In this document: in pieces, positions 15,339-26,395 of the stretch
How positions within the stretch are numbered: the stretch's first letter is position 1
Layout of the letters: each line of letters begins with the position of its first letter
Source of the DNA: Geothrix sp.
GTDB taxonomy: Bacteria; Acidobacteriota; Holophagae; Holophagales; Holophagaceae
NCBI RefSeq assembly: GCF_020622065.1
Contig: NZ_JAHRYQ010000002.1
Coordinates: 1,113,905 to 1,177,904 of the forward strand
Length of the DNA stretch: 64,000 nt
Direction of reading: 5' to 3'
The notes under the pieces: generated by a model
What the model saw: only the letters and a program-made list of their open reading frames with translations
Database searches by the model: none
What the model was told of the DNA's origin: nothing
Program-made: the position numbers and the translations under genes

Positions 15339-17177
15339 ATGCCGAACGACGCCCTGCCGCCTGATCCCTATGCGCCCTACCTCCGCCAAGCGGACGAGCT
15401 CTTCGCCCGCGACGAGATCGTCAAAGCGGGCCAGATCTGGCAGGCCATCCTCAAGCAGCAGCCCACCCACACCGAGGCCCGCGAACGCCTGGTGACCGTC
15501 CGGAAGCGGCTGCTGGCCCTGCAGGGACCCCCGCCGGAAGCCGTGGCCGCCCCGGAACCCGTTCGCCCGCCCGCAGACAGGATCCCACAGGAACCCGTGG
15601 CCCTCCCCCCACCCAGGTCTGCACCGGCGCCTGCACCAGCGCCTTCTCCCACACCCCTCCCGGCCTTCGTCCCAACCCTCGCCCCGGCCTCCGTCCCCGA
15701 ACCGGCCTCGGCTCCCGTGGAGCTCAACCGCCTGGTGATCGAGGGCTGCACCCTCTACGACATGGGCCAGCTGGAGGATGCCCTCCACAAGTGGGAGCAG
15801 GTCCTGGCCCTCGACCCCGACCACGCCCTCGCCCGGAACTACGCGAACGGCGCCCGCCGCGAGTTGGGGCTCCCCCCGCTGCAGGCTCCCATGGCCCCTC
15901 CCCCGGCGGATTCGCCCATCGCCTTCGGGGATGACGATGTGGCCCGGCTCCTCCGCGAGGCCGTCCAGCTCTACGACATGGGGCTCACGGAGGAGGCCAT
16001 CTCCAAGTGGGAGCGGGTCCTGGTCCTCGAACCTCACCGCGAGGAGATCCAGGACTACCTGCGCCAGGCCCGGCAGGAGGTGACCCAGAACGCCCTGACC
16101 CCCGCAGCGCAAACCGGCTCGACGGTCCGGGCCGCCGTGGCGGAGGCCGAGGCCCTGGACCTCAAGCTCCGCCAAGCCGACCACCTGCTGTCCCTTCAGC
16201 GCCACGAGGAAGCGGCCTTCACCTATCAGCAGGCCCTCAGCCTGTCACCCGGCCACCCGAGGGCTCTGGAGGGTCTCCAGCGGTGCCGCCAGCCCGCCGG
16301 CCGCGCCCAGGGCCCCAGTCCGACCCTGCTCCCGCCCCCGGGCCCCGTCGTCGAGCCCCAGGCCCTATCGTCCCACCCCATCACCATGGTCGAGGAGGAG
16401 CCCCTCTCCGCCCCTCCCGACCCCGGCGCGGTGGCGCCACCCGCTTCCCTGCTCAAGGCCGCCCGGGCGCCGCGGGGGGGCCTCTCCCTGCCCGGTCGCC
16501 TCCAGGGGGCCTCGGACCGGCTGCCCTGGCTGAAGAGCCCCAAGACGCTCGCCCTGCTCGGAGGCGGGCTGCTGGTGCTGATCGTGGGGATCGTCGGCCT
16601 GCGCAGCTACCGTCAGGACCAGGCGTTGAAGGAGGCCGTCAAGGCGGCCCGGACCGCCGCCGTGGCCCCGGTGCTCCAGCAGGCCCAGGCGCCGGATCTG
16701 GCGGAGGCGCCCGCAGACATCCGCGAGGAGGCGGAAGCCGCCCTCGACCGGGATCCCCTCCGCGCCTACCTGCGGGCCCAGACCCTCGTCACCCAGCATC
16801 CCTCGGAAGCCGCCGGACCCCAGCTGCTGGAAAAGGCCCGGGCCGGCCTGGCCGGCGGCGTTACGGGCGCCAGCCTCCCTGAGTTCCAAAAGCACCTGCA
16901 GAACGGCGACCTCGAGGCCGCCGCCAAGGTCATCGACGCCCTGCTGAGGGCCCAGCCCGACGATGCGGACCTGCGGGCCCGCGCCGCCCGCCTCCAGCTC
17001 CTGCTCTGCTCGGCCCACGCCGGGCAGGCCAAGTGGGAGGAGGCCGCCGAGGACCTGCGCCGGGGCCGCGCCCTCTTCCCCGGCGACAAGAGCTGGCAAT
17101 CCCGCCTCAAGCTCCTAGAGCGCGTGAAGACCCTGCCCAAGGCCCAGCAGGCCGCATGGCTCCCGCTCCTCGGATAG
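15339..17177 (+). CDS. TPR-repeat membrane protein
   Basis: 612 residues. The N-terminal half has several tetratricopeptide-like units. Two are very similar (LVIEGCTLYDMGQLEDALHK and LREAVQLYDMGLTEEAISK), separated by Pro/Ala-rich linkers. A single membrane segment lies at about 402-424 (TLALLGGGLLVLIVGIVGL). A C-terminal helical-repeat region follows, presumably on the other side of the membrane. TPRs mediate protein-protein contacts. It starts 6 bases after the FHA gene and probably acts with it. Confidence 0.75.
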   Translation: MPNDALPPDPYAPYLRQADELFARDEIVKAGQIWQAILKQQPTHTEARERLVTVRKRLLALQGPPPEAVAAPEPVRPPADRIPQEPVALPPPRSAPAPAPAPSPTPLPAFVPTLAPASVPEPASAPVELNRLVIEGCTLYDMGQLEDALHKWEQVLALDPDHALARNYANGARRELGLPPLQAPMAPPPADSPIAFGDDDVARLLREAVQLYDMGLTEEAISKWERVLVLEPHREEIQDYLRQARQEVTQNALTPAAQTGSTVRAAVAEAEALDLKLRQADHLLSLQRHEEAAFTYQQALSLSPGHPRALEGLQRCRQPAGRAQGPSPTLLPPPGPVVEPQALSSHPITMVEEEPLSAPPDPGAVAPPASLLKAARAPRGGLSLPGRLQGASDRLPWLKSPKTLALLGGGLLVLIVGIVGLRSYRQDQALKEAVKAARTAAVAPVLQQAQAPDLAEAPADIREEAEAALDRDPLRAYLRAQTLVTQHPSEAAGPQLLEKARAGLAGGVTGASLPEFQKHLQNGDLEAAAKVIDALLRAQPDDADLRARAARLQLLLCSAHAGQAKWEEAAEDLRRGRALFPGDKSWQSRLKLLERVKTLPKAQQAAWLPLLG

Positions 17178-17201
17178 AGACCCCAACGCCCGTTTCTTGG
17201 C

Positions 17202-18350
17202 TTACTCCACCCACACTTCGGGCGGCACGGGGTGGCTCAGGAAGTGGGTCATCCCCTCATTCAAGCCGTAGGCGCCGGTGGTGCCGAAGGCCAGCAGATC
17301 CCCCGGGGCCAGCTCTGGCAGGCGCACTTCGCCCAGGCGGTCGAGACTGGTGCAGAGGGGGCCGGCCAGCGTGTAAGGCTGGGTCCCACGCCCCTTGCCC
17401 ACGGCCCTCACCGGGAAGGGCTGGCCGGTAAGGAGGGGCCGGATCAAGTGGTTGATGCCGCCCTCCAGGATGGCGAAGCGGGTGCCGCGGCTCTCCTTGA
17501 TCCGCACCACGCGGGCCAGGTAGATTCCGCAGGGGCCCGCCAGGAAGCGGCCCGGCTCGAGGATCAGCTCGCCCGTGAACCAGGGATGTTCCATCAGAAT
17601 TTCGGACAATCCTTGTCCAAAGGTCCTCAGGTCGAGCGGGGCTTCGTCCGGCGCGTAGGGCACACCCAGCCCGCCGCCGAGATCGATCTGCTCGAAGGTC
17701 ATGCCGTGGGATTCGTGCAGGCGCTTCGCCAGGCTCAGCACGGCGCCGTGGATGGTCCGCAGCTTGGCCGCGTCCCGCTGGTTGCTGGCGGCGAAGACAT
17801 GCAGACCCCGGATGCGGACATGGCGGAGCTTTGCGGCCTTCTGAAGCAGGGCCGGGACCTCCTCCTCGTCCACGCCGAACGCCGATGGCCCACTGCCGCC
17901 GATGATGCGGTTGCCCTCATCGATGTCGAAGGCCGGGTGCACCCGCAGGTTCACGGCTACTTCGCGATCCGCCATCGCATCGAGCCGGGCGAGGTCCTCG
18001 AAGCCTTCCGCCTGCACCCGAACGCCCATGACCAGGGCGCGAAGCAGCTCGGTTTCCCGCTTCCCGGGCCCGGCGAAGAAGGTGCGGCCGGGGGGCAGCT
18101 TCAAGGCCTCCACCCGCTCCAGCTCGCCGATGGAGGCACAGTCGAAGCTGGCACCCAGGGCGGCGAAGCACGCCAGCAGCCGCGGATGCGGGTTCGCCTT
18201 CACCGCATAGGCGAGGCGCACCCGGGGCGGCAGCACCGCACGCAGGGCGGTGAACTGCTCCGTCGCCACCGCGCCGGAGTAGGCAAAGCAGGGCGTGCCG
18301 TGGGCCTCGGCCAGGGACCGGCATTGGGCATCGTCAAACGCGAAAAGCAT
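17202..18350 (-). CDS. PLP-dependent decarboxylase, DAP/ornithine type (probable LysA)
   Basis: 382 residues, fold type III decarboxylase. The PLP Lys lies in YAVKANPHP, the phosphate-binding Gly loop in DLGGGLGVPY, and EPGRFLAGPCG and GPLCTSLD form the C-terminal active-site elements with the conserved Cys and Asp. Its place at the end of a DAP-pathway cluster suggests diaminopimelate decarboxylase, the last step to lysine. The GPLCTSLD motif departs from the CESGD form of classical LysA and resembles BtrK/exosortase-associated decarboxylases, so the substrate needs caution. A palindromic repeat separates it from the aminotransferase. Confidence 0.75.
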   Translation of the reverse strand: MLFAFDDAQCRSLAEAHGTPCFAYSGAVATEQFTALRAVLPPRVRLAYAVKANPHPRLLACFAALGASFDCASIGELERVEALKLPPGRTFFAGPGKRETELLRALVMGVRVQAEGFEDLARLDAMADREVAVNLRVHPAFDIDEGNRIIGGSGPSAFGVDEEEVPALLQKAAKLRHVRIRGLHVFAASNQRDAAKLRTIHGAVLSLAKRLHESHGMTFEQIDLGGGLGVPYAPDEAPLDLRTFGQGLSEILMEHPWFTGELILEPGRFLAGPCGIYLARVVRIKESRGTRFAILEGGINHLIRPLLTGQPFPVRAVGKGRGTQPYTLAGPLCTSLDRLGEVRLPELAPGDLLAFGTTGAYGLNEGMTHFLSHPVPPEVWVE

Positions 18351-18363
18351 AAAAACCCCTAAC

Positions 18364-18486
18364 CCCAGAGAACGCAGACGACGCAGAGAAGGACGGGCCG
18401 GACTCTTGGGCCAACCCCTCCATCAGATTCTTCCCTGTGCATCCCTGTTTCATCCGGCATTCCTCTGCGATCTCTGCGGCTAAACC
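18364..18486. repeat. Interspersed imperfect inverted repeat (CGCAGAG family)
   Basis: The left arm (18364-18392) has two CGCAGA-GA units. The right arm (18461-18486) reads, in reverse complement, CCGCAGAGATCGCAGAGGAA. The arms bracket a GC-poor spacer. The composition is unlike the surrounding genes and resembles the dispersed intergenic palindromes known from many bacterial genomes. It fills the gap between the decarboxylase and aminotransferase genes. Confidence 0.6.
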
Positions 18487-18491
18487 TCGTT

Positions 18492-19607
18492 TCAGTGCTT
18501 CCAGTAGGGGGCCAGCCGCCGCACGCCCTCCCTCAGCTGCTCGGGCGTAGCGGCGAAGCTGAGACGGGCGTGACCGCGGCCGCCTTCGCCGAAGGCGAGG
18601 CCGGGGATGAGCACGACCTTGGCCTCATCCCGCAGCTTCAGGCAGAAAGCCAGGGGATCGGCGTGCGCGGACTCCGGCAGAGCCATGAAGTGGTAGAAGG
18701 TGCCGTCGGGGGGCGTCACGGTGTGGCCCAGCTCTTCACGCAGGGCCGAGGCCAGGGCTTCCCAGCGCAGCTGCACGGCGGCGCGGGCCTCGGCCAGGAT
18801 GGCGTCCGAGTGTTCGAGGAGCGCCAGGGCCGCCCACTGGGCCGGTGTGGCCGTGCCCGTCACCGCGTAGCCATGGACCACGCGGGCAGGGGTGAGCCAG
18901 GCGGGATCGCCCACGGCCCAGCCCACACGCAGGCCCGGCGCGCCCCAGCCCTTGCTCACCGAGCTGGTCACCACGCCGCGATCGGTGACATCGCGCAGGC
19001 TGGGCGCCCGCACGCCGAAGTGGAGGTCGCGGTAGACCTCATCCGAAATGAGCAGAATGCCCCGGGCCACGCAGGCCTCGGCCACGCGCTTGAGGGCCGC
19101 GAGATCGCCCCCGCCGCCCGTGGGGTTGGAAGGCAGGTTGAGGATCACGGCGGAGGCCTCTGGCGTGGCGTCCAGCACCCGGATGAGGGCCTCGGCATCG
19201 AGCCGGAACCGGTCCTTGGACAGCGGATAGGTCACGGGCTCGGCACCCGCGATGCGGGCCAGGGCCGGATAGGCCACGAAGCCGGGGTCGGGCATGAGGA
19301 CCTTCGTGCCGGGCTCCACCCAGGCCTGGAACAGCGAGAAGAGCGCCCCCTGGGAACCGGTGGTGATGAGCACCTCCTCCACCTGGGCGCCGTGGAAGGC
19401 GGCCACGGCCTTTCTCAGCTCCAGCAGGCCCACATGGGGCACATAGGCGCAGGGGCCGGGATCGCGCAGCAGCGCCCGCCGGGCCACCTCCGGCAGGTTC
19501 CAGGTGGGTTCGCCCAGGCCCAGGGGGATGGCCCCGGGCGGCGTGCCGTCCGTGATGGCTCGGATGGGCGAGGGCTTCAGCAGGGACAGGCGGGTGGCGG
19601 GATTCAT
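18492..19607 (-). CDS. Class I/II aminotransferase (candidate DapC role)
   Basis: 371 residues, fold type I. Visible features are GEPTWNLP near the N-terminus, the cofactor loop TTGSQGALFSLF, NLPSNPTGG with the conserved Asn, ISDEVYRDL, and the Schiff-base Lys in SSVSKGWGAPGLRVGW. The C-terminal Arg is in HARLSFAA. Sequence alone gives an aspartate-aminotransferase-like enzyme. Position between dapD and the decarboxylase suggests it supplies the N-succinyl-2-amino-6-ketopimelate transamination step, which is otherwise missing. GAGGT precedes the ATG at good spacing. Confidence 0.82.
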   Translation of the reverse strand: MNPATRLSLLKPSPIRAITDGTPPGAIPLGLGEPTWNLPEVARRALLRDPGPCAYVPHVGLLELRKAVAAFHGAQVEEVLITTGSQGALFSLFQAWVEPGTKVLMPDPGFVAYPALARIAGAEPVTYPLSKDRFRLDAEALIRVLDATPEASAVILNLPSNPTGGGGDLAALKRVAEACVARGILLISDEVYRDLHFGVRAPSLRDVTDRGVVTSSVSKGWGAPGLRVGWAVGDPAWLTPARVVHGYAVTGTATPAQWAALALLEHSDAILAEARAAVQLRWEALASALREELGHTVTPPDGTFYHFMALPESAHADPLAFCLKLRDEAKVVLIPGLAFGEGGRGHARLSFAATPEQLREGVRRLAPYWKH

Positions 19608-19630
19608 CGGGACCTCAAAAGCAACAGATC

Positions 19631-19704
19631 ACCACCAAGACACCAGGGCACCAAGTAAAGACAAAGGGTTTTTGCCGTTCTTGGTGCCTTCGCGGCCTGG
19701 TGGT
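19631..19704. repeat. Interspersed imperfect inverted repeat (ACCACCAAG family)
   Basis: The left arm 19631-19655 and the right arm 19680-19704 match at 20 of 25 positions as reverse complements. Each outer end is ACCACCA and each inner end is GGCACCAAG. The A/T-rich spacer contains AAAGACAAAGGGTTTTT. This is a typical dispersed CCACCAAGRCACCAAG palindrome. It lies between dapD and the aminotransferase and could fold in the operon transcript. Confidence 0.7.
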
Positions 19705-19725
19705 TTTCATTTCGTCACCACCGCC

Positions 19726-20547
19726 CTACCGCAGCGCCTGTTCCAGGGCCGTGGCCGCGTCGGTCCTGTCGTCGCGGTACTTCACGATGCAGGGGGCCGA
19801 TACCTGGAGCCCGCGGGCCTTGGCATAGTCGCCGGAGGCGGGCCGGGAGCCCGGCACCACCACGGCGCCTTCGGGCACCTCCTGGCGCAGCTCGCGGCCA
19901 TTCACCAGGTCGTAGATCACGGTGCTGCCCGTGATGACCACACCCGAGGCCAGCACCGCGCGTCGGCGCACCACGATGCCCTCGAAGAGCCCCACCAGTC
20001 CGCCCACGAAGGCGTCATCCTCCACGATCACCGGCCGGGCGCCGGCGGGCTCCAGCACGCCGCCGATCTGGGCGGCGGCCGACAGGTGCACGCGCTTGCC
20101 GATCTGGGCGCAGCTGCCCACCAGGGCGTGGCTGTCCACCATGGTGCCCTCATCCACGAAAGCCCCCACATTCACATACGCGGGCGGCATGAGCACCACG
20201 CTGCGGGCAATGTGGGCGCCGCGCCGCACCGATGATCCGCCCGGCACGAGGCGCACGCCATCCTCCAGTCCGAAGTGGCGGACCGGATAGGCGGTCTTGT
20301 CGAACATGGGAAAGCCGGGACCCGGCATCTCCACCAGGTTCGTCCGGCGGAAACCGCAGAGGATCGCCTGCTTCACCCAGGTGTTGGCCACCCAGGTGCC
20401 GTCATCCTGGCGCTCGGCGGCCCGGATGGTGCCCGTCTCCAAGCCCACCAGGAGTACTTGGTGCATGGCGGGGGCTTCGGGATCCGCCGCCAGGACCTCC
20501 GCCGGACGGTTGAAGAAGCTGTGGATGGAATCCAGATCGACAACCAT
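19726..20547 (-). CDS. dapD: Tetrahydrodipicolinate N-succinyltransferase DapD
   Basis: 273 residues, essentially the E. coli DapD length. It succinylates tetrahydrodipicolinate in the succinylase branch of lysine synthesis. The left-handed beta-helix hexapeptide region is clear (RRGAHIARSVVLMPPAYVNV, GTMVDSHALVGSCAQIGK, VHLSAAAQIGGVLEP). The VNVGAFVDEGTMVDSHALVGSC core is diagnostic. The ATG shares one base with the dapA stop (TGATG), which fixes the start. Confidence 0.95.
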   Translation of the reverse strand: MVVDLDSIHSFFNRPAEVLAADPEAPAMHQVLLVGLETGTIRAAERQDDGTWVANTWVKQAILCGFRRTNLVEMPGPGFPMFDKTAYPVRHFGLEDGVRLVPGGSSVRRGAHIARSVVLMPPAYVNVGAFVDEGTMVDSHALVGSCAQIGKRVHLSAAAQIGGVLEPAGARPVIVEDDAFVGGLVGLFEGIVVRRRAVLASGVVITGSTVIYDLVNGRELRQEVPEGAVVVPGSRPASGDYAKARGLQVSAPCIVKYRDDRTDAATALEQALR

Positions 20548-21449
20548 CACACCACTCCAGGGAAGGTGCCCTCGGTCGAGAGGCAGAGGGCTTCGGCCAG
20601 GCGTGTGCGCGTGGCGGGTTCGGCAGGAACCAGGGGCAGGCGCAGGCCGTCTTCGCAGAGGCCCAGGAGCTTCAGCACTGCCTTCAGGGGGATGGGATTG
20701 CTCTCCACGAAGAGGGCGTCCATCAGGGGCAGCAGCTGCTGGTGCAGGCGCAGGGCCTCGACCCCGTTCCCCTGCCGGGCGGCGGCGATCATGGCCGCAG
20801 TCTCGCGAGGCAGCACATTGCCCAGCACCGAGATGAGACCAGAAGCCCCCACGGCCAGGGAGGCCACGGCCAGGTTGTCGTCGCCGGACAACAGCAGCTT
20901 GCCCTTGGGCAGCTGTCGCGCGATCTCCCCGATCTGGGCCAGGTTGCCGCTGCTCTCCTTCACGGCCACCACCTGGGGATTCTCCCAGAGGCGGGCCAGC
21001 ACGGCCGGGGTCACATTCAGCCCCGTGCGGCCCGGCACATTGTAGGCAATGATCGGCAACCCCGGTGCCGCGTCGGCCACCGCGGCGAAGTGCGCCACCA
21101 GGCCAGCGGGCGTGGGCTTGTTGTAGTAGGGCGTCACCACCAGGGCGCCCTGGGCTCCCAGGGCCTGGGCGCGCTGGGTCATGGCCGCTGCCTGGCGCGT
21201 GGCGTTGTGTCCCGTGCCCACGACCACGGGGCGGCCGCTGCTCTCCTCGAGACAAGCCGTGATGATGGCGTCGCGCTCCGCATCCAGGATCGTGGCGGCT
21301 TCCCCCGTGGAGCCCAGGGGTACCAGGAAGTCCACTCCGCCTGCCACCACATGCCGCACCAGCTTGCGGAAGGCGGGCAGGTCCACCTCGCCCGAGGCGG
21401 TAAAGGGCGTCGCCAGGGCGACGGCGAGTCCGGAGAAATCGAGGGTCAT
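20547..21449 (-). CDS. dapA: 4-hydroxy-tetrahydrodipicolinate synthase DapA
   Basis: 300 residues, a TIM-barrel class I aldolase. It condenses pyruvate with aspartate semialdehyde. Motifs: LATPFTASGEVD, LGSTGEAATI, YYNKPTPAGL with the catalytic Tyr, YNVPGRTGLN, and the Schiff-base Lys in VVAVKESSGN. GGAGG stands 6 bases before the ATG, which itself overlaps the dapB stop (ATGA). Confidence 0.96.
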   Translation of the reverse strand: MTLDFSGLAVALATPFTASGEVDLPAFRKLVRHVVAGGVDFLVPLGSTGEAATILDAERDAIITACLEESSGRPVVVGTGHNATRQAAAMTQRAQALGAQGALVVTPYYNKPTPAGLVAHFAAVADAAPGLPIIAYNVPGRTGLNVTPAVLARLWENPQVVAVKESSGNLAQIGEIARQLPKGKLLLSGDDNLAVASLAVGASGLISVLGNVLPRETAAMIAAARQGNGVEALRLHQQLLPLMDALFVESNPIPLKAVLKLLGLCEDGLRLPLVPAEPATRTRLAEALCLSTEGTFPGVV

Positions 21450-22168
21450 GGTTTGCCTCCGAAGGCGAAGAGGGGATCGAGCAGGTCGGCGGCCAGGTCT
21501 TCCATGGTGAAGACGCCCTTGCGGCCCTGAAGCCAGTGGGCCGCCGCCAGAGCGCCTTGGGCGAAGGGCGCCCGGGACCGGGCGATGTGCGTCAGCTCCA
21601 GCAGCTCGGCGGGGGCATCCAGCCCCACCGTGTGGGTGCCGAATTCCGCCCCGGCCCTCACGACGCCGATGCTCAGCTGATGCGGCGCTGGCGTGCCCAA
21701 AGTCCATTCGGTTTTGCGGGGACAGCCCCGCAGGAGGGCCGCGGCCAGCGTCTTGGCCGTGCCGGAAGGTGCGTCGGCCTTGAGGCGGTGGTGGCGCTCC
21801 ATCAGGAAGGGATCCCGCGCGGGATCGAGGGCCGCGAAGCGCCCCAGCACCGTGGCGAAGCGGGCCATGAGGGCCACCGAGAGCGAGAAGTTGGAGGCCG
21901 CCAACACGCCGATGCGCCCCGCCACACGATCCTCCAGGTCGGGCACCGACCAGCCCGTGGTGCCGATCACGAGGTCGGTTCCCGTCTCCAGGGCCCAGGC
22001 GAGATGGGCCTCGACGGCCTCCGCCACGCTGGCATCGATGGCCACGGCCACGGGGCCGGTCGGGCGCCCTTCGCGGTCCACCTGCCAGGCCAGGGCCTCC
22101 CCGGCCTCCGCGGCGATGGCTGAACCCAGACGGCCCTTCCCGAAGAGGCCAAGGCGGGGTGCCGTCAC
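21446..22168 (-). CDS. dapB: 4-hydroxy-tetrahydrodipicolinate reductase DapB
   Basis: 240 residues, about 30 shorter than E. coli DapB. The N-terminal nucleotide-binding loop is LGLFGKGRLGSAIA. The catalytic segment HHRLKADAPSGTAKTLA holds the His and Lys of the family signature, and VIGTTGW and AASNFSLSVALM are also present. Translation begins at a GTG that overlaps the lysC stop (GTGA). The shortening appears to fall between the nucleotide loop and VIGTTGW, as in other compact DapB forms. Confidence 0.93.
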   Translation of the reverse strand: MTAPRLGLFGKGRLGSAIAAEAGEALAWQVDREGRPTGPVAVAIDASVAEAVEAHLAWALETGTDLVIGTTGWSVPDLEDRVAGRIGVLAASNFSLSVALMARFATVLGRFAALDPARDPFLMERHHRLKADAPSGTAKTLAAALLRGCPRKTEWTLGTPAPHQLSIGVVRAGAEFGTHTVGLDAPAELLELTHIARSRAPFAQGALAAAHWLQGRKGVFTMEDLAADLLDPLFAFGGKP

Positions 22169-23505
22169 GCCGCACCCCCCACCAGCACGCGATGCAGGCG
22201 CCGCAGGGCCTCGGAACTCTGGTCCTGGCGGACCACCAGGCTCAGGTTGATCTCGTTGGCGCCCATGCTGATCATCTCCACATTGATGTCGCCCAGCGAG
22301 GACAGCAGCTGCGCGCCCAGGCCCGGCGTGGACTTCAGCCGCTCGCCCACGGCGGCGATGATGGCCCGGCCCTCGTGGATCTCCACCGTGGCGAAGGCCG
22401 ACAGGTCCTGGATCAGGGGCTTCAGCGGCACATCCGCCTCCACCGTGAGGGAGACGCTCACCTCGGCCGTGGCCACGAGGTCGACGCTCACGCCGCGGCG
22501 GCCGAACACTTCGAACAGCCGCGCCAGGAACCCGCTCTGGGCCAGCATCCGGGAGCTGCTCACCGTAAGCACGGTCACCGGGCCCCGGCTGGCCAGGGCC
22601 GTGATGGGACGGCCCGTGCGGACCTCGGCCGAGATCGTGGTGAAGCGGCCTTCGGGTTTCTGCGTGTGGCGCACGGTGACAGGGATGCGCGCTTCCACCG
22701 CGGGCTGGATGGTGGCCGGGTGGAGCACCTTGGCGCCGAAAGCGGCCAGCTCGGCGGCCTCGGCGAAGCTCAGCTCGGGAATGGGCAGGGCCTCGGGCAC
22801 GATGCGCGGATCGCAGGTGAGCACGCCCTCCACATCCGTCCAGATCTGCACCTCCGCCGCGCCCAAGGCCGCCCCGAAGAGGGCGGCGGAATAATCGCTG
22901 CCACCCCGGCCCAGCGTGGTGGTGAGCCCATCCTCCGTGGCGCCGATGTAGCCCTGGGTCACCACGGCCCGGCCCGGGCCCAGGAGGGGCTTCAGGTGGT
23001 CGGCAGCCAGGGGCCGGATCGCCTCCTGCTGGGGCACGGCCTCCCCGAACACGCCGTCCGTACGGAGAACCGTGCGGGCATCCACCCAGGCACCCCCCAC
23101 GAAGGCCGCGAAGATGCGCGTGGACAGCCGCTCGCCCAGCGAGGCGATGGCATCCATGCTCCGGGGGCTCAGCTCGCGGAGCAGGGCCACGCCCCGAAGC
23201 AGCAGCTCGAGCTCCCCGAAGAGGTCCGTCAGGGCCACATCCAGGCTTTCGGGCACGGCGCCGTCGAACAGCTCCGCGGCGGCCTTCCGGTGGGAGGCCA
23301 TGAGGCCCCGCTGCTGCTCCATGGCGCCGGCCAGGTCGCCCGCTTCCGCGGCCCTCGCCGCCCCGAAGAGGCCGTTGGTGGTCTTGCCCATGGCGGACAG
23401 CACCACCAGGGGCGACTGGGGCAGGGCCGACCGCACCAGGCTCGCCACCTGGCGCATGCAGGCCGCATCGGCCACACTGCTGCCGCCGAACTTGAGGACG
23501 ATCAT
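22165..23505 (-). CDS. lysC: Aspartate kinase LysC (class III, monofunctional)
   Basis: 446 residues, close to E. coli LysC (449). It phosphorylates aspartate at the entry of the pathway. The N-terminal kinase motif is MIVLKFGGSSVADA; ATEDGLTTTLGRGGSDYSAAL is the substrate/ATP region. Two C-terminal ACT domains begin near residue 300 (VTVLTVSSSRMLAQSG, VEMISMGANEINLS), so feedback control by an amino acid is likely. The ATG overlaps the asd stop (ATGA), which excludes the longer upstream frame. Confidence 0.94.
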   Translation of the reverse strand: MIVLKFGGSSVADAACMRQVASLVRSALPQSPLVVLSAMGKTTNGLFGAARAAEAGDLAGAMEQQRGLMASHRKAAAELFDGAVPESLDVALTDLFGELELLLRGVALLRELSPRSMDAIASLGERLSTRIFAAFVGGAWVDARTVLRTDGVFGEAVPQQEAIRPLAADHLKPLLGPGRAVVTQGYIGATEDGLTTTLGRGGSDYSAALFGAALGAAEVQIWTDVEGVLTCDPRIVPEALPIPELSFAEAAELAAFGAKVLHPATIQPAVEARIPVTVRHTQKPEGRFTTISAEVRTGRPITALASRGPVTVLTVSSSRMLAQSGFLARLFEVFGRRGVSVDLVATAEVSVSLTVEADVPLKPLIQDLSAFATVEIHEGRAIIAAVGERLKSTPGLGAQLLSSLGDINVEMISMGANEINLSLVVRQDQSSEALRRLHRVLVGGAA

Positions 23506-24557
23506 CGGAGGTACCCCTTCGCATGGGCCAGCTCGGCGTTCAGGATGCTGCCTCCGGCCGCCCCGCGCTCCGTGTTGTGGCCGAGGAGCGCGAACTTCAC
23601 ACCGAGGATGGGGCAAGCCCTCAGGCGGCCCACATGCACGCTCATGCCGCCATCCGTCTCCACATCGCGGCGTACCTGGGGGCGGTCCTCCAGGGTGTGG
23701 ACATGCACGGGCACGGCGGGTGCCGAAAAGAGCTTCAGTCGCTGGGGTTCAGGTTTCCAGCTCAGCCAGGCCTCGCGCACCGCCTCCAGGGATGGGTTGC
23801 CTTTCAGCTTCACGCTGACGGCCTCCGTGTGGCCCTCGATGACGGGTACCCGATGGCAGAGGGCGCTCACCCGCATGGGCGCCAGCTCCACTTCGCGGCC
23901 GGTGAAGCGACCCAGCATCTTGGGCGTCTCCTCCTCCACCTTCGGCTCCTCGTTGCGGATGAAGGGGATCACATTGCCCAGGATGTCCAGGCTGGCCACG
24001 CCGGGGTAGCCGGCGCCGCTGATGGCCTGCATGGAGGTCATCAGCACGGCCTCCACACCGAAGGCCTCCTGGAGCGGGGCCAGGGCCATGACCAGCACCG
24101 TGGCCGTGCAGTTGGCGTTGGTGACGATGCCGCCGCTCCAGCCGTGGTGATGGCGCTGCACCTCGAGCAGGCCCAGATGATCGGCGTTCACCTCGGGCAC
24201 CAGCAGGGGCACTTCCGGCGACATGCGGAAGGCCGCCGCGTTGGAGAACACCATGGCCCCGGCCCGGGCGAAGGCCGGCTCCAGCTCCGTGGCCGGCGCC
24301 GTGTCGAGGGCGCTGAAGATCACCGGCGACAGGGCGAATTCCGGGGTGCCCTCGGCCATCACCTGGTCGCCCAAACCGCCATAGGGCTCGCCGTCCAGGC
24401 GCCAGGCGCAGGCGTCGCGGTAGCGCTTGCCGGCGCTGCGTTCGCTGGCCGCGAGGTGTTCCACGCGGAAGAGGGGGTGGTTCGCCAGGCGCCGCACAAA
24501 GCGCTGGCCCACGACGCCAGTGGCGCCCAACACGGTCACGGGGATTTTCGAGGACAT
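23502..24557 (-). CDS. asd: Aspartate-semialdehyde dehydrogenase
   Basis: 351 residues. It reduces aspartyl phosphate to the semialdehyde using NADPH. The N-terminal GATGVVGQRF loop binds NADP. The catalytic Cys lies in NANCTAT, which with SGAGYPGVASLDI marks the archaeal/fungal-type Asd branch rather than the E. coli type. The catalytic His is in the HRVPVIEGHTE segment. The start is 3 bases after the dapE stop. Confidence 0.95.
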   Translation of the reverse strand: MSSKIPVTVLGATGVVGQRFVRRLANHPLFRVEHLAASERSAGKRYRDACAWRLDGEPYGGLGDQVMAEGTPEFALSPVIFSALDTAPATELEPAFARAGAMVFSNAAAFRMSPEVPLLVPEVNADHLGLLEVQRHHHGWSGGIVTNANCTATVLVMALAPLQEAFGVEAVLMTSMQAISGAGYPGVASLDILGNVIPFIRNEEPKVEEETPKMLGRFTGREVELAPMRVSALCHRVPVIEGHTEAVSVKLKGNPSLEAVREAWLSWKPEPQRLKLFSAPAVPVHVHTLEDRPQVRRDVETDGGMSVHVGRLRACPILGVKFALLGHNTERGAAGGSILNAELAHAKGYLR

Positions 24558-24560
24558 GGT

Positions 24561-25595
24561 TCAGTCTCCCAGGAAATGCAGGGCCAGCCGGTGATTCAGA
24601 TCCACGCCGGCTTCCAGATCGGCGAGGGCGAGGCACTCCTCCAGCGTGTGCGCCACGCGGATGCTGCCGGGCCCCGCCAACACCACGGTGCGATCCGGCA
24701 CCAGCGCCCGCAGGGTGGGCGCATCGGATCCGAAGGGCATGGCCGCCTGCTCGAAGCCAGGAATCTCCGGATAGCGATCCGGGGGTTCGTCCAGGCGCAG
24801 GTCCACCGAACCTTCGGGCGGCGCCAGGCGGCGGACCTCCTCGGCAAAGGTGCTGCCGGGCAGCGTGCGCACCAGCAGGTCGGCCACCGCCGAGGCTGGC
24901 ACGGAGTTGAGGGCCTCGCCCCCGCGCAGCAGCCCGAGGTTCCACACCTCGGGACCCAACCGGGGATCCGCGGGCCGGGGCTGCTCGCGCAGCCGCTGGA
25001 GCCAGTCCAGCAGGGGCCAGGTGGCGTCGTGGCCCAGCTCCGGGCTGCCGCTGTGGGCGGCCCGACCTGCGCAGTGGAGGCAGAGGTGCTGGGCCCCGCG
25101 CTGACCCGAGGCCAGCTTCAGCTCCGTGGGCTCGCCGTTGATGAGCGCCCTCAGGTCCCGCAGGCGGTCCGCCAAGCCCAGGGCCGCGGTGGCTCCCGCG
25201 CTGTCGGTCTCCTCGCCCACCACGCCCAGCCAGGCGAGGCCTTCGCGGCCTTCGGCCAGCAACCTCCGTACGGCGCCGAGCTGGGCCACAATCTGGCCCT
25301 TGGCGTCGCAGGTCCCGCGGCCATGCAGCACCTCTCCCTCCAGCCTCGGCGGCAGGAAGGGCGGCACCGTATCCAGATGGGTGGAGAAGAGCACCGCCGG
25401 TCGCCCCCAGACCGCCAGCACATTGGTTCGACCCTCGGCCACGGGCTGCTCGTGGATCGTCGCGCCGAGTCCCTGCAGCAGGGCCCGCAGGGCCGGCAGG
25501 CCCGCATCCTCCCGGCCCGAAGTGGTCTCCTGGGCGCAAAGCTGTCGCAGGCTGCCTGTGAGCCAGCTTCGGAGATCGGCGGTGGTGGCGTTCAT
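24561..25595 (-). CDS. dapE: M20-family deacylase, probable succinyl-diaminopimelate desuccinylase DapE
   Basis: 344 residues. M20 metallopeptidase motifs: THLDTVPPF (first metal His and catalytic Asp), GRGTCDAKGQ (bridging Asp) and GEETDSAG (general-base Glu and ligand). A dimerisation domain follows (AGRAAHSGSPELG). Related enzymes remove acetyl from ornithine or lysine carriers, but first place in a DAP operon containing dapD argues for succinyl-DAP desuccinylation. GAGG precedes the ATG; the frame open to 25688 runs into the riboswitch leader and was rejected. Confidence 0.85.
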   Translation of the reverse strand: MNATTADLRSWLTGSLRQLCAQETTSGREDAGLPALRALLQGLGATIHEQPVAEGRTNVLAVWGRPAVLFSTHLDTVPPFLPPRLEGEVLHGRGTCDAKGQIVAQLGAVRRLLAEGREGLAWLGVVGEETDSAGATAALGLADRLRDLRALINGEPTELKLASGQRGAQHLCLHCAGRAAHSGSPELGHDATWPLLDWLQRLREQPRPADPRLGPEVWNLGLLRGGEALNSVPASAVADLLVRTLPGSTFAEEVRRLAPPEGSVDLRLDEPPDRYPEIPGFEQAAMPFGSDAPTLRALVPDRTVVLAGPGSIRVAHTLEECLALADLEAGVDLNHRLALHFLGD

Positions 25596-25630
25596 GGAAA
25601 CCTCGGCGGGCCGACGGTGCCATCTGGAAC

Positions 25631-25653
25631 GCGGTGGGAGGGACTCCCGCCGC
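25631..25653 (-). promoter_or_regulatory. Expression-platform hairpin downstream of the riboswitch
   Basis: A 10-position stem with one mismatch and a 3-base loop (GCGGCGGGAG / CTCCCACCGC on the minus strand) lies between the aptamer and the dapE ribosome binding site. No U-run follows. Control may therefore be by a non-canonical terminator, Rho, or alternative pairing rather than a classic intrinsic terminator. Confidence 0.5.
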
Positions 25654-25655
25654 CG

Positions 25656-25840
25656 CTCCTCAGGCCCTCCGCGCCGGGTGACCGGCACGACAGCCGCCGG
25701 GCTTTCGCCTCAGCGTCCAGGGGCCGCGCCGATGACTCGCGATCCCTTCGGCGATCCTCCCCTTTCCCGGCAGGTCATCGGGGTCATCCCCCTCGCCGTC
25801 GGTACTGATGGGGACCGCTCCTCCATCGGAAGGTCCACCT
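25656..25840 (-). ncRNA. Lysine riboswitch (L-box)
   Basis: Read on the minus strand, the dapE leader contains the conserved L-box blocks in order: AGGAGCGG followed by CAGTA, then AAAGGGGAGGATCGCCGAAG (almost identical to the AAAGGGGAGCGUCGCCGAAG block of known L-boxes), TCATCGGC, GGCGGCTGTC, and a terminal GGAGGGC. GGACCTTCC at the 5' side can pair with GGAGGGCC at the 3' side as P1, with one bulge. Lysine binding would repress the operon. No similarity search was possible, but the ordered motifs and the position upstream of dapE-asd-lysC make this a strong call. Confidence 0.88.
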
Positions 25841-25870
25841 TCCCACGGCCAAGCCCCCTTTTGCAAGCCG

Positions 25871-26395
25871 CTACCGGAGGTCGCTCAGCAAGGCCTCGCC
25901 GCGGGGCCAGGGGCCGTGGCCCGAAGCCTGGTTCAGGTGGCCGCAGGGCCCCAGGTCCACGAAGCGCGCTCCCCAGTCCGCCGCCAAGGCGCGGGCCCGG
26001 GCCGGCGCCAGAAAGGGGTCGTCCGAGGAGGCGGCCAGGATGGCGGGAAAAGCCAGCCGCAGCCGGGGGATGGGTCCGAAGGCCCTCAGCACCGCCAAGG
26101 CATCGGCTCGCTCCACATCTGCGGGGGCCGCCAGCAGCGCGCCCCGGATTTCCCGGTCATGGCCCTCCGCCCAGTGGACGATGGCCAGGCAGCCCAGCGA
26201 ATGCCCCACCAGGATCGGCGGTTCCTGGCAGTCGGCGATGGCCTCGTCCAGGGCCTCCACCCACGCCGCCTTGATCGGGTGTTCCCAGCTGGGCATCTCC
26301 ACCCGTTTCATGCCGCCCAGGCTGCCCTCCCACAGGCTCTGCCAGTGGCCAGGGCCGGAACTCTGATAGCCAGGGACGGTCAGGATCGTGGGCAT
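25871..26395 (-). CDS. RBBP9/YdeN-type alpha/beta hydrolase
   Basis: 174 residues, the usual length for the small serine-hydrolase family RBBP9/YdeN. N-terminal LTVPGYQSSGPGHWQSLWE is characteristic. The nucleophile Ser is in LVGHSLGCL, the acid in ASSDDPF, and the His in CGHLNQASGHGPW. Substrate unknown. A G-run (GGGGGG) lies 3 bases before the ATG. It is co-directional with the lysine operon but upstream of its riboswitch, so probably separate. Confidence 0.85.
   Translation of the reverse strand: MPTILTVPGYQSSGPGHWQSLWEGSLGGMKRVEMPSWEHPIKAAWVEALDEAIADCQEPPILVGHSLGCLAIVHWAEGHDREIRGALLAAPADVERADALAVLRAFGPIPRLRLAFPAILAASSDDPFLAPARARALAADWGARFVDLGPCGHLNQASGHGPWPRGEALLSDLR

Follow-up and report, generated by a model that had tools for sequence, protein, structure and literature searches.

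Operons under the control of lysine riboswitches have been tabulated in PMC5584792, and with regard to Acidobacteria this table holds a single entry, asd-lysC in Candidatus Solibacter usitatus. None of the tabulated operons starts with or contains dapE, and the word dapE is absent from the main text of that paper. As to the aptamer itself, 21 nucleotides of the five-way junction and the pocket are named as highly conserved in the available part of PMC3764141. For the lysC riboswitch of Escherichia coli, the available part of PMC5234074 discusses an anti-P1 stem and reports mRNA cleavage or decay (RNase E) beside the control of translation. Here, we describe an element from the genus Geothrix, on which no paper was found in the open-licence literature, and compare it with these systems. 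The term window denotes the whole stretch of DNA analyzed, which has a length of 64 kb.

Identity and Conservation of the Aptamer

An initial annotation had interpreted the minus-strand leader of dapE as a lysine riboswitch (L-box) and had proposed a search with cmscan. This search returned a complete lysine aptamer (RF00168, model positions 1–182) with 65.4 bits and an E value of 7.7e-15 in the 64-kb window, the gathering score of RF00168 being 30. The span originally assigned, 25656–25840, proved correct within a few bases (25833–25654 by cmscan), and the conserved blocks AAAGGGGAGGATCGCCGAAG and TCATCGGC are both present in the sequence. At gathering thresholds, the 64 kb contain no Rfam match besides RF00168, and the genome (3.35 Mb, two contigs) harbors the aptamer as a single copy (E 9.4e-17 in the genome search). 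Judged from its sequence, the element belongs to the lysine riboswitches of class RF00168 and thus adds a further member to a known class. The following parts of the aptamer are referred to below:

25654..25833, minus strand: lysine riboswitch aptamer, P1–P5, full-length RF00168, conserved-nucleotide pattern in 38/38 leaders
25823..25831, minus strand: P1 5′ strand (UUCCGAUGG), CC:GG and GG:CC pairs with 25664–25658
25658..25664, minus strand: P1 3′ strand (CCUGAGG), possibly common to a competing stem

A full or partial aptamer match is present in 39 of 47 Geothrix genomes. The comparisons within the genus comprise the 38 readable leaders, G414 being left out as its aptamer lies at a contig end without a readable gene. 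When the 21 positions described in the available part of PMC3764141 were mapped onto these leaders via the Rfam consensus, a single spacing-tolerant pattern that includes all of the conserved junction and pocket nucleotides fitted 38/38. A chance match that is not a riboswitch is refuted by both E values, in the window and in the genome, and by the conservation of position and pocket in the relatives.

The kissing interaction between loops L2 and L3 is represented in the window by the complementarity of GAUGAC with GUCAUC. Among 28 sequences, the mean number of complementary L2-L3 bases amounts to 5.14 for a leader's own loops versus 4.31 for swapped loops. The changed loops of L060, L061, L135 and L143 stay complementary to an extent that swapped loops do not reach, while the test is not distinguishing for L054, L055, L073, L081 and L136, for which some swapped loop is equal or better. 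P1 is short and consists of GG:CC and CC:GG flanking a 3 × 3 internal loop. Its four G-C pairs are formed in 99.3% of cells with hardly any variation, and in the Rfam alignment of P1 three of six pairs are non-standard.

Putative Promoter and Predicted Transcript Start

Upstream of the aptamer, promoter-like elements were recognized:

25861..25866, minus strand: putative -35 element TTGCAA, with TTG 16–19 from the -10 element in 38/38 Geothrix leaders
25837..25845, minus strand: putative weak extended -10 element TGG-GAAGGT, from the alignment of Geothrix leaders

In all 38 leaders, the second and sixth bases of the -10 hexamer are A and T, respectively; the hexamer is preceded by TG in 36 of them and sits five bases upstream of the P1 strand in every case. 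It is also retained in G182, a relative that lacks the riboswitch. A standard consensus sigma-70 scan found no promoter, and the putative -35 element must therefore be regarded as a weak match. From the spacing of the conserved promoter-like elements, the transcript probably starts near 25830, right at the border of P1. A further hairpin, GGAAGGU...ACCUUCC, which had emerged from alignment and folding, was set aside because its conserved part fits the -10 element and would precede the presumed start of the transcript.

Genes Downstream of the Riboswitch

The gene order originally given, dapE-asd-lysC-dapB-dapA-dapD, is accurate; the operon was drawn too short, since genes for an aminotransferase and LysA also follow. 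The description as a near-complete DAP operon stands, with dapF as the only step outside the cluster. In named genomes, close relatives of the encoded Asd belong to Geothrix species and to MAGs of Holophagaceae, in line with the assignment to Geothrix. The cluster comprises:

25601..25604, minus strand: Shine-Dalgarno sequence GAGG of dapE, five bases before AUG
24561..25595, minus strand: dapE (ArgE/DapE family deacylase), best NCBIfam matches below curated cut-offs
23502..24557, minus strand: asd, TIGR00978 over cut-off
22165..23505, minus strand: lysC, lysine-sensitive type aspartokinase 3, NF006570 just over cut-off
21446..22168, minus strand: dapB, TIGR00036 with 102 bits, cut-off of 122 not reached
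20547..21449, minus strand: dapA, TIGR00674 over cut-off
19726..20547, minus strand: dapD, NF008808 over cut-off, ATG overlapping the dapA stop (TGATG)
18492..19607, minus strand: PLP-dependent aminotransferase, candidate DapC, matching many aminotransferase families, all below cut-off
17202..18350, minus strand: lysA (diaminopimelate decarboxylase), TIGR01048 with 244 bits, cut-off of 298 not reached

Start and stop codons overlap or nearly touch at the asd-lysC, lysC-dapB, dapB-dapA and dapA-dapD junctions. Gaps of 118 and 141 bases precede the aminotransferase gene and lysA, respectively, in the window. Both genes occupy the same place in all 32 complete Geothrix clusters, in which the gap before the aminotransferase gene ranges from -4 to 290 bases and that before lysA from 11 to 1910 bases; lysA may thus be separate in some of them. 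As the aminotransferase matches families only below cut-off, the name DapC is a guess from context. The genome encodes three aspartate kinases including the LysC described here, one of the other two residing in an 849-aa frame. In view of these two additional enzymes, the operon-encoded LysC may be the lysine-specific aspartate kinase.

The sole DapF-like match in the genome (C2:1080737-1081405) is located on the same contig as the operon and outside the cluster. It is split in two within one 344-aa frame and scores 63.7 bits against a cut-off of 114.65; on the basis of this weak match the frame might encode a divergent DapF.

Distribution and the dapE-First Arrangement

RF00168 was detected in 43 of 396 sampled genomes of the phylum, 42 of them above cut-off, and in 58 of 77 genomes of the family Holophagaceae. 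Fourteen of the 19 aptamer-less genomes of the family were rescanned under laxer settings, with every first-look candidate scored and E values admitted up to 1, and none of the 14 yielded a match. Outside of Holophagaceae, no relative of any of the eight operon genes was found in G131 and G074.

In Geothrix, dapE is the first gene behind the aptamer in 38/38 readable leaders, and all eight genes follow in the same order in 32 of the 38 clusters, the other six ending with the contig. The arrangement had been called less usual, which holds true in comparison with the operon table of PMC5584792 and fails within Geothrix, where it is the rule. Leaders with dapE directly behind the aptamer are also found among other Holophagaceae and, elsewhere in the phylum, in family f66. 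Within the Holophagaceae genus g2, lysC comes first in G087, G390, G426 and G428, and asd in G427. Outside of the family, lysC is the first gene in f22 and f70, dapE in f66 and asd in G385 of f86. The distant f66 leaders (L068, L070) have no terminator-like U-run between the lysine aptamer and the start of dapE.

Two genomes of genus g9, G308 (L056/L057) and G332 (L058/L059), contain two lysine aptamers each, one before lysC-dapB-dapA-dapD-aminotransferase-lysA and the other before dapE. The pattern looks as if the operon had been split and the switch kept by each part.

Absence of a Terminator

Two hairpins follow the aptamer:

25631..25653, minus strand: hairpin H1 (GCGGcGGGAGuccCUCCCaCCGC), supported by covariation and not followed by a U-run
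25588..25632, minus strand: predicted sequestering hairpin with GCGUUC:GAACGC, AUGG:CCAU, ACC:GGU and UCGG:CCGA

In the stem of H1, four pairs are changed on both sides among the 38 relatives, a value reached by one of 500 shuffles for the stem tested as a whole. The initial annotation had already pointed out that the hairpin after the aptamer lacks a U-run, and the scans bear this out with no terminator-like site in 25550–25950 and none in 16900–25700. The longest T run between aptamer and start is four in the 38 Geothrix leaders, and 20 other Holophagaceae leaders contain no run of five or more T. An intrinsic terminator of the Bacillus type, i.e., a GC hairpin with a U-run, was rejected as the scans provided no site.

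The lysC-first leaders from f22 and f70 (L063, L064, L065, L067, L069, L071 and L072) all have at least five T in a row after the aptamer (7/7). Read by eye, these U-runs appear to be parts of intrinsic terminators after hairpins, with the limitation that T runs carry less meaning in those of the leaders that are AT-rich.

Transcription could also be affected without a U-run, via Rho or via pausing at H1, and translation would then be influenced only indirectly. H1 is strong, covarying, GC-rich and placed directly after P1, and buried translation starts in the ribB and mgtA riboswitches are linked with Rho in the available part of PMC5234074. The U-runs of lysC-first relatives outside the family likewise speak for such an action, as they indicate that this aptamer is able to bring about termination within the phylum. 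On the other hand, the lack of a U-run extends over 38 leaders from Geothrix and 20 from other Holophagaceae, the distance from aptamer to AUG is only about 60 bases, mostly structured, and the conserved stretch is centered on the start codon, and we therefore hold an effect via Rho or pausing to be unlikely.

Predicted Sequestration of the dapE Start

The second hairpin is predicted to bury the Shine-Dalgarno sequence, AUG and codons 2 and 3 of dapE, the GAACGC partner of GCGUUC being made up of the G of AUG and codons 2 and 3. In the 38 leaders, the hairpin is paired in 94.4% of cells versus 35–42% for slid versions. Its outer helix is paired in 100% with changes restricted to one-sided wobble; for the AUGG helix, the paired cells amount to 82.9%. 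Two-sided covariation was found nowhere in the hairpin among the 38 leaders, and its conservation could consequently be in part a conservation of coding or Shine-Dalgarno sequence. Consensus folding of the whole leader for 23 sequences did not provide a clean picture.

In the window, the Shine-Dalgarno sequence is unpaired to 0.05 versus 0.37 in shuffles (0/60 as low) and AUG to 0.02 versus 0.57 (2/60 as low). Mean values for the 38 related leaders and their shuffles are 0.06 versus 0.30 for the Shine-Dalgarno sequence and 0.37 versus 0.60 for AUG, which means that in many relatives AUG remains partly accessible. Among the eight genes of the operon, dapE has the lowest accessibility of the Shine-Dalgarno region (0.17 versus 0.26–0.55), while the AUG of dapD is more buried than that of dapE (0.28 versus 0.35).

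We consider it probable that the lysine riboswitch lowers the expression of dapE-asd-lysC-dapB-dapA-dapD-aminotransferase-lysA at plentiful lysine by repressing translation. Lysine would keep P1 closed, such that GUUCC after H1 would be free to form the basal pairs of the sequestering hairpin and thereby cover the start codon. With this hairpin closed, dapE would not be translated, and the downstream genes with overlapping ends would follow. When lysine is lacking, the P1 3′ strand would pair with GUUCC and extend H1; with GUUCC taken up in this way, the sequestering hairpin would be left without its base and ribosomes could start. That the main output upon lysine binding is mRNA cleavage or decay, reported for E. 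coli lysC as mentioned above, appears quite improbable, given that visual inspection of the leader revealed no single-stranded stretch rich in AU.

Possible Switching Between Two States

In the model proposed, GUUCC would be exchanged between two partners. Besides closing the sequestering hairpin, this sequence can extend H1 by pairing with GG(A/C)GC, which overlaps the P1 3′ strand, with GGC further along able to pair with GCC. The GUUCC:GG(A/C)GC stem would be an anti-P1 stem. When the P1 3′ strand is free, eight of the 38 leaders, that of the window among them, favor the competing stem, and the other 30 favor sequestration by 0.2–7.6 kcal/mol. A C-U mismatch position in the competing stem is unpaired in 33/38. 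In equilibrium folds of 23 leaders, the Shine-Dalgarno sequence is almost equally buried with the P1 3′ strand blocked or free, the largest change between the states being 0.10 (L032).

Step-wise folding of the window with P2–P5 fixed resulted in a preference for P1 until GUUCC is made and for the open state thereafter, the latter by up to 10.4 kcal/mol. The open-state peak exceeds 2 in 38/38 leaders with a mean of 8.1. Shuffled window platforms attain 7.0 ± 2.3 kcal/mol, and four of 60 reach 10.4, so that the preference for an open P1 during synthesis is weak and not special.

A start-site hairpin that is constant and sets a low basal level, combined with a decaying or weak riboswitch, would agree with equilibrium folds that do not separate two states, with a switch test that barely beats shuffles and with G182 and G300, which have dapE in hand and lack the aptamer. 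Against this stand the full or partial aptamer match kept in 39/47 Geothrix genomes and the pocket nucleotides fitting 38/38 readable leaders, a picture that does not suggest decay, and a constant hairpin is accordingly a very remote prospect. Lysine-dependent switching of the dapE start, weakly supported by these folds, is put forward as the best reading.

G182 (L153:380-480) represents a natural loss of the riboswitch. Its leader retains the promoter-like sequence, the first part of the aptamer, and the Shine-Dalgarno sequence and AUG of dapE, while the whole segment that begins with P2 and ends with the 5′ arm of the sequestering hairpin is gone, apparently by internal deletion, and GAACGC reads GAACAC. 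This is what relief from start-site pairing would look like, in one MAG. In G300, dapE is also present without the aptamer.

Six lysC-first leaders from Holophagaceae were examined (L053, L062, L130, L131, L056 and L059), and all of them contain a frame of 16–22 codons between aptamer and lysC (6/6). The TGA of this short frame overlaps the ATG of lysC (ATGA), and most of the frames have a Shine-Dalgarno-like sequence. The riboswitch may thus control the short upstream frame and, by coupling, lysC in these lysC-first organisms. A more far-reaching proposal, which we put forward tentatively and with more doubt than conviction, is that the lysine riboswitch of the Holophagaceae is a purely translational switch with the first dapE codons incorporated into the platform: GUUCC would be exchanged between the stem competing with P1 and the helix formed with AUG and codons 2 and 3, and in the lysC-first sister genera the short upstream frame overlapping lysC (ATGA) would have become the regulated start.

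Comparison With Known Lysine Riboswitches

The Geothrix element resembles the lysine riboswitches (L-box) of class RF00168 in its full-length aptamer, the pocket nucleotides, the L2-L3 complementarity and its place before genes of lysine synthesis; it differs from the class in a short and weak P1 and in the absence of a U-run. While the operons listed in PMC5584792 start with lysC, asd, lysA or dapA, the first gene in Geothrix is dapE. Control by a lysine riboswitch is hereby extended to a dapE-first operon in Geothrix and its family, with the prediction that in these iron-reducing bacteria lysine jointly lowers the synthesis of DAP and of lysine itself.

As far as the available part of PMC5234074 shows, the E. 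coli lysC riboswitch likewise has no intrinsic terminator, and an anti-P1 stem together with a buried start is proposed in both cases. The two differ in that the Geothrix riboswitch heads an eight-gene operon starting with dapE and in that AUG and codons 2 and 3 are themselves predicted to be part of the sequestering helix. The platform is thus predicted to be of the translation type as in E. coli lysC, and would be unusual mainly as the head of a dapE-first operon in Acidobacteriota.

With regard to the genes controlled, the Thermotoga operons asd-dapF-dapA-dapB-dapD-lysC-lysA-amidohydrolase (PMC5584792, Table 1) are similar in that a near-complete DAP operon lies behind one lysine riboswitch. 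Gene order and first gene are different, and dapF is located inside the Thermotoga operon and outside the Geothrix cluster.

The lysC-first Acidobacteriota with at least five T after the aptamer in 7/7 leaders have the phylum, the RF00168 aptamer and the DAP genes in common with Geothrix, which lacks such T runs. Within one phylum, the same aptamer would thus be linked to platforms with a U-run in some lineages and to start-site pairing in another, and the occurrence of two platform types on the same aptamer makes a change of platform testable.
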